From: Verrucomicrobiota bacterium
GTDB lineage: Bacteria > Verrucomicrobiota > Verrucomicrobiia > Limisphaerales > UBA9464
Direction: 5' to 3'
Length of the DNA stretch: 38,474 nucleotides
Assembly (NCBI GenBank): GCA_017309115.1
Contig: JAFLEF010000018.1
Span: forward strand, 84,572 to 123,045
The notes under the pieces were generated by a model that searched no databases, was not told the DNA's origin, and saw nothing but the letters and a program-made list of their open reading frames with translations. Both the position numbers and the translations under genes were made by a program. Shown here piece by piece: positions 35,808 to 38,474 of the stretch. Positions within the stretch are counted from its first letter, which is position 1. Every line of letters begins with the position of its first letter.

Positions 35808-35873
35808 CCGGGACGCCGAGTGAATCCGGGGCGGGCCCCGCCCAAACCATTCTTTGGTGCGCGGTTTCCTCAT
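35808..35873 (-). pseudogene. Relic of a RAYT transposase N-terminus
   Basis: The minus-strand frame from ATG 35873 encodes about 22 residues (MRKPRTKEWFGRG...HSASR) that align without gaps to the start of the RAYT-like gene at 38364: 9 of 22 are identical, including the H-x2-S-R motif. The downstream sequence no longer resembles a transposase and runs into antisense of the Lgt fragment. Its leader (35888-35928) is 37/41 identical to the intact gene's leader. Confidence 0.65.
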
Positions 35874-35887
35874 GCCCCAGATTTCAG

Positions 35888-35928
35888 CACATCCCCAAAA
35901 CCTCCCACCATCGCCTCATTTAACGAGC
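35888..35928 (-). promoter_or_regulatory. RAYT leader copy, relic locus
   Basis: 41 bases, read on the minus strand, match the 41 bases at 38310-38350 at 37 positions. The spacing to the ATG is 14 bases here and 13 in the other copy; both end GGGGCATG. I infer a conserved expression or recognition region of the RAYT. Confidence 0.75.
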
Positions 35929-35974
35929 GGCCGTTCTACCACGGCTGGCGAGTTCAACAGAGCGCCAACAGAGC

Positions 35975-36144
35975 GCCAGGTAATCTATCCGACGGTTCGG
36001 AGTACCGCCTTCAGGCGGCGGAGCGCCCGGCGAGCACCAAACCCGACCAGGATACCTCTGACTTCCAGATGGCGTTCCTTCCCCGCCTCCGTTCCTGAAA
36101 ACTGCGTGAATCTGCGGTTCAACCATCCCCGCAGATTACCTGGC
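35975..36144. repeat. 170-base inverted-terminus element, copy 1
   Basis: Begins GCCAGGTAATCT and ends AGATTACCTGGC, perfect 12-base terminal inverted repeats. The interior contains a hairpin CCGCCTTCAGGCGG. The right end is followed by ACTCCATAGGG and 13 more bases also present after copy 2, so the homology continues to about 36168. No coding capacity. Confidence 0.88.
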
Positions 36145-36259
36145 ACTCCATAGGGCGTGGCGGAAGGCGAGGTAATCTATCCGGCAGTGCCGGGATTGTT
36201 TTTCACATGCGACGTCCAACCTGATTCGCCCTACCGTGTCCCGGCAGGAGTTCGAATTC

Positions 36260-36769
36260 ATGCTGCGTTCGATTAAGAAGCTTTCGCTGATGGGTGCGAT
36301 TCTCGCAGCGTGCTTGGCGGGAATCGGTGCCGGAGTCGGCGGGTTCTGGTTGCTCGATCGAAAGCGATCAGAAGCCCACGGCAATAGTCACGGGAGTGTG
36401 CGGACGCGAATGGACATCCAAAGTATCGCTCTTGCCGTTCAGATTTATGTCACCGAAACGGGCCGTTTGCCTGACGCGGTTTCACCGGACGTAGTCGCAG
36501 CTGTCGATACCAAGCGCCTCTACGCTAACCTCTTTTCAGATCATGCTGCGAAGCTCGAGCTTGGTCCACCGAAGCGGCATTGGCACGAATCCGAGGACCT
36601 GGTCGATCGCTGGGGTAACGCCTTGAATATTGTTGTGGGGACGAACGGCGAGGCAAACGTCGGAATCCGGATCTGGAGTAACGGGCCTAACGAAAGAAAC
36701 GAAACCGGGGCGGGCGATGACATTTCCGGTCATGATCTCCAAGTTGAATTTCAACTGAGGGCTAGGTAA
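36260..36769 (+). CDS. GspG-like protein without a prepilin cleavage site
   Basis: A 169-residue protein. I choose the ATG at 36260 because AGGAG lies 11 bases upstream at 36244-36248; the frame is open from a GTG at 36236. An N-terminal hydrophobic helix (LMGAILAACLAGIGAGVGGF) is followed by RTRMDIQSIALAVQIYVTET, then GRLPDAVSPDVV, DRWGNALNIVVGTNGEA and IWSNGPNERNETGAGDDISG. This is the C-terminal pattern of GspG pseudopilins (WGN, S-x-GPN, DDI), but the GFTLIE leader is absent, so it is probably a fixed membrane protein, not a pilin. Its stop codon is within the left end of repeat copy 2. Confidence 0.75.
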   Translation: MLRSIKKLSLMGAILAACLAGIGAGVGGFWLLDRKRSEAHGNSHGSVRTRMDIQSIALAVQIYVTETGRLPDAVSPDVVAAVDTKRLYANLFSDHAAKLELGPPKRHWHESEDLVDRWGNALNIVVGTNGEANVGIRIWSNGPNERNETGAGDDISGHDLQVEFQLRAR

Positions 36770-36930
36770 TCTGCCCGACAGTTCGGAGTACCGCCTTTAG
36801 GCGGCGGAGCGCCCGGCGAGCACCAAACCCGACCAGGATACCTCTGACTACCAGATGACGTTCCTTCCCCGCCTCCGTTCCTGAAAACTGCGTGAATCTG
36901 CGGTTCAACCATCCCCGCAGATTACCTGGC
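36761..36930. repeat. 170-base inverted-terminus element, copy 2
   Basis: Begins GCTAGGTAATCT (one change from copy 1) and ends AGATTACCTGGC. The length is identical to copy 1 and only a handful of bases differ by eye, including TTCA to TTTA in a hairpin loop, leaving the stem intact. The right extension ACTCCATAGGGCGTGGCGG is also shared. The left end supplies the TAA stop of the GspG-like gene. Confidence 0.88.
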
Positions 36931-36969
36931 ACTCCATAGGGCGTGGCGGAAGGCCAGGAAACCTGTTCT

Positions 36970-37998: not shown

Positions 37999-38128
37999 AA
38001 AGGCAGGCTAAGTCTGGTGGGCATCGGCGCTACACGTGTCTTGGCCCTTCCTCCCTGCGGGTTGCACCGGTTATCCCGACGTAGTGGCACAGAAAAACTC
38101 CTCGATACCGTTTGCCGGGCCGATACCC

Positions 38129-38160
38129 ATAGAGTGCCAGGTAATTACCTGGCTCTTTAT
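38129..38160. repeat. Palindromic REP pair, no spacer
   Basis: The centre GCCAGGTAATTACCTGGC (38136-38153) is a perfect 18-base palindrome. The symmetry extends to 16-base arms (38129-38160) with one T/T and one G/T mismatch. The left arm reads, on the minus strand, ATTACCTGGCACTCTATGGG, matching the tail ACTCCATAGGG of the 170-base element. Confidence 0.85.
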
Positions 38161-38190
38161 TGAGGCGCCGCGAGCGATAATGCCTTCGAC

Positions 38191-38202
38191 AGATTACCTG
38201 GC
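38191..38202 (+). repeat. REP unit AGATTACCTGGC
   Basis: AGATTACCTGGC followed by GGACAATGGGG, in the same layout (core, 5 bases, ATRGGG) as the element ends at 36133 and 36919. Confidence 0.75.
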
Positions 38203-38238
38203 GGACAATGGGGACGAGGCCTGGGCCGCTGGGGCGAC

Positions 38239-38248
38239 AGATTACCTG
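38239..38248 (+). repeat. REP unit AGATTACCTG, RAYT-proximal
   Basis: AGATTACCTG followed by TGGCTCTATGGC, 61 bases before the RAYT leader. The relic locus has the same order: on the minus strand, AGATTACCTGGCGCTCTGTTGG is followed by the leader copy. Confidence 0.75.
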
Positions 38249-38309
38249 TGGCTCTATGGCATGGCCGCTGGCGCCGAGGCTGGATCCCAAGCTCCGAATG
38301 GCTGGGCTG

Positions 38310-38350
38310 GCTCGTTAAATGTGGCGATGGTGGGAGGGGTTGGGGAAGTG
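38310..38350 (+). promoter_or_regulatory. RAYT leader, intact locus
   Basis: 41-base sequence directly before the RAYT-like gene, 37/41 identical to the inverted copy at 35888-35928. The 13 bases after it lead to the ATG at 38364. Confidence 0.75.
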
Positions 38351-38363
38351 GTGGGATAGGGGC

Positions 38364-38474
38364 ATGGCCAAGGAACGATTTAAAGGAGTGCCTGGACTGG
38401 GGACGCACCATTTTCACTGCACCTCCCGGGTGGTGAGTGGGGAGTACGTCTTCCAGGCTGAGGAACGGGAGGAG
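38364..38474 (+). CDS. REP-associated tyrosine transposase (RAYT), N-terminal part only
   Basis: The window ends 37 codons into this gene. The visible protein begins MAKERFKGVPGLGTHHF and continues HCTSRVVSGEYVFQAEEREE. The pattern H-x-x-S-R-V-V ... E-Y-V-F ... E-E-R-E is the start of the Y1/RAYT transposase domain, where similar proteins have 'YHvtSRvv..efvF..eEke'. RAYT proteins are HUH-type single-strand transposases, normally linked to REP palindromes, as here. The catalytic HUH and Tyr motifs lie beyond the window, so integrity cannot be judged. The leader, the relic copy and the upstream REP units all support the call. Confidence 0.72.
   Translation, partial: MAKERFKGVPGLGTHHFHCTSRVVSGEYVFQAEEREE

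Follow-up and report, generated by a model that had tools for sequence, protein, structure and literature searches.

The window studied here (the whole stretch of 38,474 nucleotides that was analyzed) ends in what is probably one of about five nearly identical copies of a mobile gene, with a short tag as its left bound and a near-palindromic unit as its right bound, the unit having been multiplied into rows. The window corresponds to positions 84572-123045 of contig C22 (123,045 bases), from a genome of 7.53 Mb in 111 contigs. Our best reading, drawn from sequence comparison, is that of a presumably still active transposon of the TIRtron type with an HUH enzyme, apparently a sister of TnpA-Y1 subclass 2.3; the unit at its right end would have grown into arrays. 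An earlier note on this DNA had interpreted the same end as a REP/RAYT locus, and this interpretation was partly supported. The features of the window are as follows.

38364..38474 (+): first 37 codons of a Y1/HUH transposase gene, truncated by the contig end; 49-69% identity to the N-termini of three full-length paralogues.
38301..38363 (+): leader common to the copies, about 63 nt conserved between them.
38239..38259 (+): array unit AGATTACCTGTGGCTCTATGG, with an exact AGATTACCTG at 38239-38248.
38191..38211 (+): array unit AGATTACCTGGCGGACAATGG with degenerate right half and an exact AGATTACCTG at 38191-38200; absent from the 70 sequence-model matches described below.
38127..38162 (no strand): head-to-head fusion of two units, containing a 32-base palindrome at 38129-38160.
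36919..36941 (+): unit AGATTACCTGGCACTCCATAGGG, right side of the second 207-bp duplicate.
36788-36804 (+): site of a second palindrome family, GTNCCGCCTNNAGGCGG.
36756..36772 (-): degenerate unit AGATTACCTAGCCCTCA, left side of the second 207-bp duplicate.
36133..36155 (+): unit AGATTACCTGGCACTCCATAGGG, right side of the first 207-bp duplicate.
36002-36018 (+): site of the GTNCCGCCTNNAGGCGG family.
35970..35986 (-): unit AGATTACCTGGCGCTCT, left side of the first 207-bp duplicate.
35871..35928 (-): relic of this element's leader (84% identity to 38310-38366); it stops on reaching the ATG, with no gene behind it.

The last base of the window is also the end of contig C22, and the transposase ORF is therefore cut by the assembly; in fact, window positions 38301-38474 recur (99%) at the right end of contig C50, which stops at the identical base. 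The 37 codons of protein seen by the earlier note were confirmed, the ATG at 38364 opening the translation MAKERFKGVPGLGTHHFHCTSRVVSGEYVFQAEEREE. The 41-base leader proposed in front of it was poorly bounded, and the conserved stretch is the one of about 63 nt listed above; its opening bases, GCTGGGCTGGCTCGTTAAATG, form the left tag (about 61 bp ahead of the ATG), where the copy on C22 diverges from those on C50 and C93. Both single units claimed upstream were recovered, and with one mismatch allowed AGATTACCTG occurs 9 times in the window (0.9 expected). The 32-base palindrome is likewise present, with 16-nt arms that are 88% complementary, and folds as single-stranded DNA (z = -3.94, 0 of 200 shuffles as good), but it is not the unit, being two units fused head to head. 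Farther to the left lies a direct duplication of 207 bp (35966-36172 and 36752-36958, 95% identical), which encloses a small open stretch and has units of the window family near both of its edges.

Three full-length paralogues of 341-345 amino acids were found in the same genome (C22:57973-59004, C33:12518-13546 and C50:4898-5917), the C33 and C50 copies being 91% and 51% identical, respectively, to the first. They carry the HUH motif NHFH and the tyrosine motif YIDLN or YLDLN, and the C22:57973 paralogue passes the Pfam model Y1_Tnp (46.6 bits, cut-off 23), in agreement with the claim that a Y1/HUH transposase begins in the truncated frame. The 37-residue stub by itself had no match in Pfam or NCBIfam; against the paralogues its best E value was 2.9e-11. 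The top NCBIfam match of the C22:57973 paralogue was REP_Tyr_transpos, with 54.3 bits under a cut-off of 80, and transpos_IS200 (31 bits) also stayed under its cut-off of 55. Among 47 family loci examined, the HUH motif was NHFH in 45 and NHIH in one, with no match to the HUH pattern in the remaining one, and the tyrosine motif was YIDLNP in 44; the three copies of this genome have YIDLNS, YIDLNS and YLDLNP. An AlphaFold model of the paralogue with 43 relatives in the alignment (pLDDT 87, pTM 0.88) predicts, by our own assessment of the order, beta-alpha-beta-beta (HUH), three insert helices, alpha, beta, alpha (tyrosine) and a C-terminal part, the order that a Y1 HUH domain carrying a helical insert should show. 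A sequence search of solved structures gave weak matches to IS200-type transposases (best profile E value, 0.017).

Ten contig ends lie within the rows of the element, on the left side in C22, C39, C50, C62 and C93 and on the right side in C13, C55, C77, C85 and C96. C22 and C50 break off at the identical base within the gene; C55 and C13 open, in our reading, with its final seven codons and stop. The equality of five left ends and five right ends, which cannot be paired with one another, suggests about five gene copies, the middle of which was collapsed and lost in the assembly. The middle of the window gene was not found elsewhere in the genome in a tblastn search with a full-length paralogue, which returned the three full copies and two 35-residue stubs.

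The copies diverge at the edges of units or at the left tag, a feature that connects two known types of transposon bearing repeats. On the right side, where the comparisons were made without the pair C13-C85, contigs C77, C96, C85 and C55 have a terminal unit in common and separate 21-24 nt past its first base, which is directly after RTNG, and C13 separates 21 nt past the first base of an earlier unit. On the left side, six of eight comparisons separate from 11 nt before to 1 nt after the start of a unit, and the other two at the left tag GCTGGGCTGGCTCG (38301); the comparisons have contigs in common and, like the ten ends themselves, are not independent of one another. All ten ends are assembly breaks, and C77 and C96 have exactly 127 nt in common at 100%, which resembles an assembler overlap. 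That the shared ends are chimeric or overlapping and the rows inflated by the assembler is nevertheless highly improbable, since two complete copies with rows sit inside contigs (L032 and L048) and, by our tally, 19 of the 70 unit matches lie away from gene copies. A point against the preferred reading of a mobile gene bounded by a tag and a unit is that the older pair of full copies (C22:57973 and C33:12518) have leader and gene in common and differ in their rows, which may therefore move independently of the gene; the idea that rows had moved with it in these copies was not supported.

Genome-wide, AGATTACCTG occurs 33 times and its reversed pattern 0 times, and AGANTNCCWGGNANTCT with up to one mismatch has 55 sites against 1 (part of the 55 being single-mismatch matches unlike units), so that the core is far commoner than its control, the outcome for which the earlier note had proposed to look. 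A sequence-model scan yielded at least 70 unit matches in this genome and 0, 0, 0, 1, 1 and 0 in six relatives, these counts being lower bounds from at most 150 candidates per genome. Matching units past the gene, for which the note had also proposed to look, were found, units lying on both sides of full-length copies. In the rows, units are spaced about 45 bp apart in the same direction, and by our tally their strand is that of the gene in 24 of 25 cases to the left of the gene and in 24 of 25 to its right. The other 20 matches comprise the 19 away from gene copies and one opposite-strand match at a site already counted. The same-direction units on both sides of the gene (48/50) and the position of the divergence points, at a unit edge or the left tag, are new here, as far as our literature search goes, which found no paper pairing GGGACAGGTC with 'transposase'.

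We aligned 67 units, 65 of them distinct, from 22 stretches of this genome. The one-direction consensus of the 65 is CYAGATTACCTGGMACTCTRTNGG, and as the right bound of gene copies the imperfectly palindromic unit of 21 bp reads CAGATTACCTGGMACTCTRTNG. Its core is a 17-bp near-palindrome centred on CCTGG with two conserved mismatches, T4 (65/65) standing opposite C14 (47/65) and A6 mostly opposite C or A. The tail ACTCCATAGGG, which had been presented as a conserved tag, was seen, but it is only one variant of CTCTRTNGG. No GTRG or GT[AG]G foot was present on the 5' side of the units, and on the 3' side GTAG or GTGG occurs in 12 of 65 and RTNG in 49 of 65.

These data bear on whether the window ends in a classical REP/RAYT locus, with the units as REPs (hairpins) spread by a domesticated RAYT, which we regard as unlikely. 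Imperfect palindromes do flank a Y1 gene on both sides and are dispersed elsewhere too, their palindromic register is genuine, with 68.5% of cells pairing in it and 16-50% when it is slid, and REP_Tyr_transpos is the top NCBIfam match, its score nevertheless being below the cut-off. Yet among the 65 units pairing was never above the level given by independent columns, and no covariation was found in a 44-row alignment (score 0.074, shuffled mean 0.083). Single units folded at z <= -2 in 8 of 65 cases, a weak test in which the intended positive control, the second family GTNCCGCC, gave 0 of 9; the median fold energy was -7.1 kcal/mol for that family and -3.0 for the units. Of ten stretches that were folded, the fused pair and two single units gave z below -1.9, and the remaining seven ranged from -1.37 to 1.03. 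We accordingly dropped the unit as a hairpin with a GTRG-like foot: covariation is missing, the RTNG tail is at the 3' side, and GTAG/GTGG is found in 12 of 65 units. For the conserved mismatches, the lack of covariation and the missing 5' GTRG foot, the units are not supported as REPs in the usual sense, and the gene, present in several near-identical copies, is a multi-copy mobile gene rather than a single-copy RAYT, its relatives having GGGACAGG-type tags of the TIRtron/TIRYT kind.

The finding that unit sequence is conserved rather than pairing also suits sites bound as double-stranded DNA, whether by the protein's C-terminal part or by another regulator, which would have been copied passively by repeat recombination next to a gene that is mobile or conserved for other reasons. 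The spacing of about 45 bp and the common direction would fit such rows, and the long C-terminal part of the protein (about 197-344) is unmatched in the subclass 2.3 alignment. That copies part at unit edges would not be predicted by passive copying, however, and relatives carry tags at corresponding places, and we consider this explanation slightly less probable still than a classical REP/RAYT locus.

A better candidate for a classical REP is the second, GC-rich dispersed palindrome family GTNCCGCCTNNAGGCGG, which has 67 genomic sites, the reversed pattern having 1, and fits the role of 'resident REP' better than the units to which the earlier note had given it. Three of its copies (L054, contig C97, 2063-2360) lie directly behind a gene for a 206-aa Y1 protein. 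This RAYT-like protein has the motifs NHYH and YVHNNP, scores 71.1 bits with REP_Tyr_transpos (cut-off 80) and is a weaker match to the profile of the window group (92.6%, E 4.5e-7). Another gene of the genome (L055, contig C23, 1634-2086, minus strand) encodes a 150-aa Y1 protein with YIGNQSEHH, resembling the YIKNQKEHH given for subclass 1.2 in the part of PMC6006769 considered here.

To place the gene among relatives, a profile from an alignment of three proteins was searched against the contigs, giving 4 loci, and the wider comparison was based on a separate genome search. Of 51 genomes from this bacterium's family, 34 carry the gene, with at least 40, 38, 33 and 32 matches in four of them, contig-end fragments included (41 candidates were scored in each of G001, G003, G014, G016 and G017). 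In a wider draw from the phylum it was found in at least 59 of 288 genomes, at most seven candidates per genome being scored and the counts thus lower bounds. Named relatives are the Verrucomicrobia MAG (RA.bin74) and Verrucomicrobium sp. BvORR034.

At the place matching the leader start at 38301, about 60 bp ahead of the gene, relatives have a GGGACAGG-type tag, which was found at -110..-30 of the gene in 33 of 44 loci and in 1 of 329 control windows; it was missing from this interval in the other 11. Behind the gene, an inverted tag was seen at +150..+300 in 9 of 42 loci. The expectation of true inverted-repeat tags everywhere was thus not borne out. Within a genome, copies are mostly alike from the left tag to about the stop codon, near which their homology ends, and in many relatives no right tag is visible; genome G222, with seven copies in one nearly closed contig, has mixed tags and no clear right tag. 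Genome G060 has six copies with 90-96% identity, each of them carrying GGGGACAGAC at -56/-57 in front of the gene and GTCCGTCCCC at +147 to +214 behind it. The 51% paralogue on C50 (L047, C50:4000-7500) is flanked by GGGGACAGACCC on each side, the one behind the gene being in reverse orientation. As a separate observation, 13 occurrences of GGGGACAGACC were counted genome-wide against 2, and 7 of the 13 lie on C50.

The two-sided tags of relatives are inverted, whereas the units of this genome are not, and this, like the missing right tags in many relatives, counts against the preferred reading. The G003 tag AAGGGACAGGNC occurs 110 times against 6 in its own genome and 4 times against 6 in the present one, and in 20 stretches it was found singly, as inverted pairs about 40-50 bp apart and as direct pairs. 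The unit of this genome agrees with that of G003 at 15 of 21 positions on one strand and at 10 of 21 on the other (0 of 5000 shuffles reach 15), which favours the reverse strand of the unit as a possible counterpart of the GGGACAGG tag of relatives, but the unit of G049 (L098), from the same genus, fits by eye about equally in the opposite orientation.

Outside the phylum, the nearest matches in a plasmid collection were nine records (Pseudoalteromonas, Catenovulum, Shewanella, Vibrio, Photobacterium and others). Four plasmid proteins of 314-356 aa have YVDLNP and the HUH motifs NHLH, NHTH, NHYH and NHYH. Words resembling GACAGGCAC or GACAGACAC were noticed by eye upstream of the subclass 2.3-type genes on Shewanella, Pseudoalteromonas, Catenovulum and Vibrio plasmids (L160-L163).

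Taken together, the mobile gene encodes a Y1 HUH transposase of 340-odd residues, and a copy would be bounded on the left by the short tag, about 60 bp ahead of the start codon, and on the right by the 21-bp unit. The combination of end tags with a tyrosine/HUH enzyme suggests cutting and joining of one DNA strand. The tyrosine may nick one strand, as in the IS200/IS605 enzymes, beside a tag or unit at the left end and immediately 3' of RTNG at the right end, which supposes that the enzyme cuts where the copies part, and the segment between the nicks would move as single-stranded DNA. The unit appears to have been multiplied in this genome, where rows of units with a common direction flank the gene and solitary units lie elsewhere; we propose that any unit edge may be usable, and that rows would therefore grow, shrink and leave solitary units.

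The gene is present in several near-identical copies, the end unit is almost private to this genome, and the divergence points give definite candidate cut sites, namely 5' of the tag or unit and 3' of RTNG. The step from an end tag to a dispersed palindrome can be tested in one bacterium and its relatives. If the proposal is true, repeated moves build rows of palindromes in the same direction and shed solitary units, which would be a possible route of origin for REP-like sequences. It is still an open question how REP sequences derive from transposons; REP systems are mostly old, domesticated ones. We tentatively suggest, while thinking it rather doubtful, that the element is intermediate between a TIRtron and a REP system, with the right-end unit serving also as a favoured joining point and the clade as a sister of subclass 2.3 that bears REP-like tags.

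Among known systems, TIRtrons/TIRYTs resemble the present element in having Y1 transposase genes with short end tags; in the part of the description by Di Nocera et al. (2013, PMC3733652) considered here, the shared end motif is GGGGWSAS, and the tags also occur alone, paired and clustered. Inverted GGGGWSAS tags beside the Y1 gene were found in all six G060 copies (GGGGACAGAC), which make up a TIRtron in the sense of that description, and around the 51% paralogue on C50 (GGGGACAGACCC). They were not found at the window copy, whose left tag is GGGCTGGC and whose right units are directed like the left ones; the young copies here thus differ from the TIRtron description in that the right-end unit is near-palindromic and stands in same-direction rows on both sides, with GGGCTGGCTC as the left tag.

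RAYT/REPtron systems (TnpAREP) share with our element the Y1 domain and dispersed imperfect palindromes adjoining the gene. The present element differs from them in lacking a 5' GTRG foot and hairpin covariation, and in having a multi-copy gene and same-direction units rather than inverted pairs; the low gene copy number and low identity between copies that mark a REPtron were not seen here.

In IS608, the end signals have the same direction and the cuts lie outside them. By analogy, the IS200/IS605 elements are alike in their multiple copies, in same-direction end signals with outer edges and in the HUH/tyrosine chemistry to be expected, whereas they (subclass 1.1) differ in the Y---Q motif, which is not present here, and in a protein of about 150 aa, half as long. 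Same-direction units with outer edges would resemble the IS200/IS605 plan more than simple inverted repeats, and the inverted tags of relatives speak against its straight transfer.

Also among the closest known systems are the proteins of TnpA-Y1 subclass 2.3, which have YVDLNP and for which the part of Quentin et al. (2018, PMC6006769) considered here reports no REP-like sequences. Likenesses to that description are the length of about 340 aa, the beta3-alphaC insertion (from the HUH strand to the next core helix), a W-E motif and Y-x-D-L-N(P/S), and the profile of the window group matched four subclass 2.3-type proteins of Alteromonadales/Vibrio (99.8%) over residues 1-196 and none beyond. 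Compared with the subclass as described there, the window group is without the beta1-alphaA insertion of about 10 residues (a 9-column gap in the alignment), has another C-terminus and carries tags and arrays. From these comparisons, the group appears to be a sister of subclass 2.3 rather than a member, and, at least for this sister group, our results correct the statement in that part of the paper (PMC6006769) that proteins of the 2.3 type have no such sequences.
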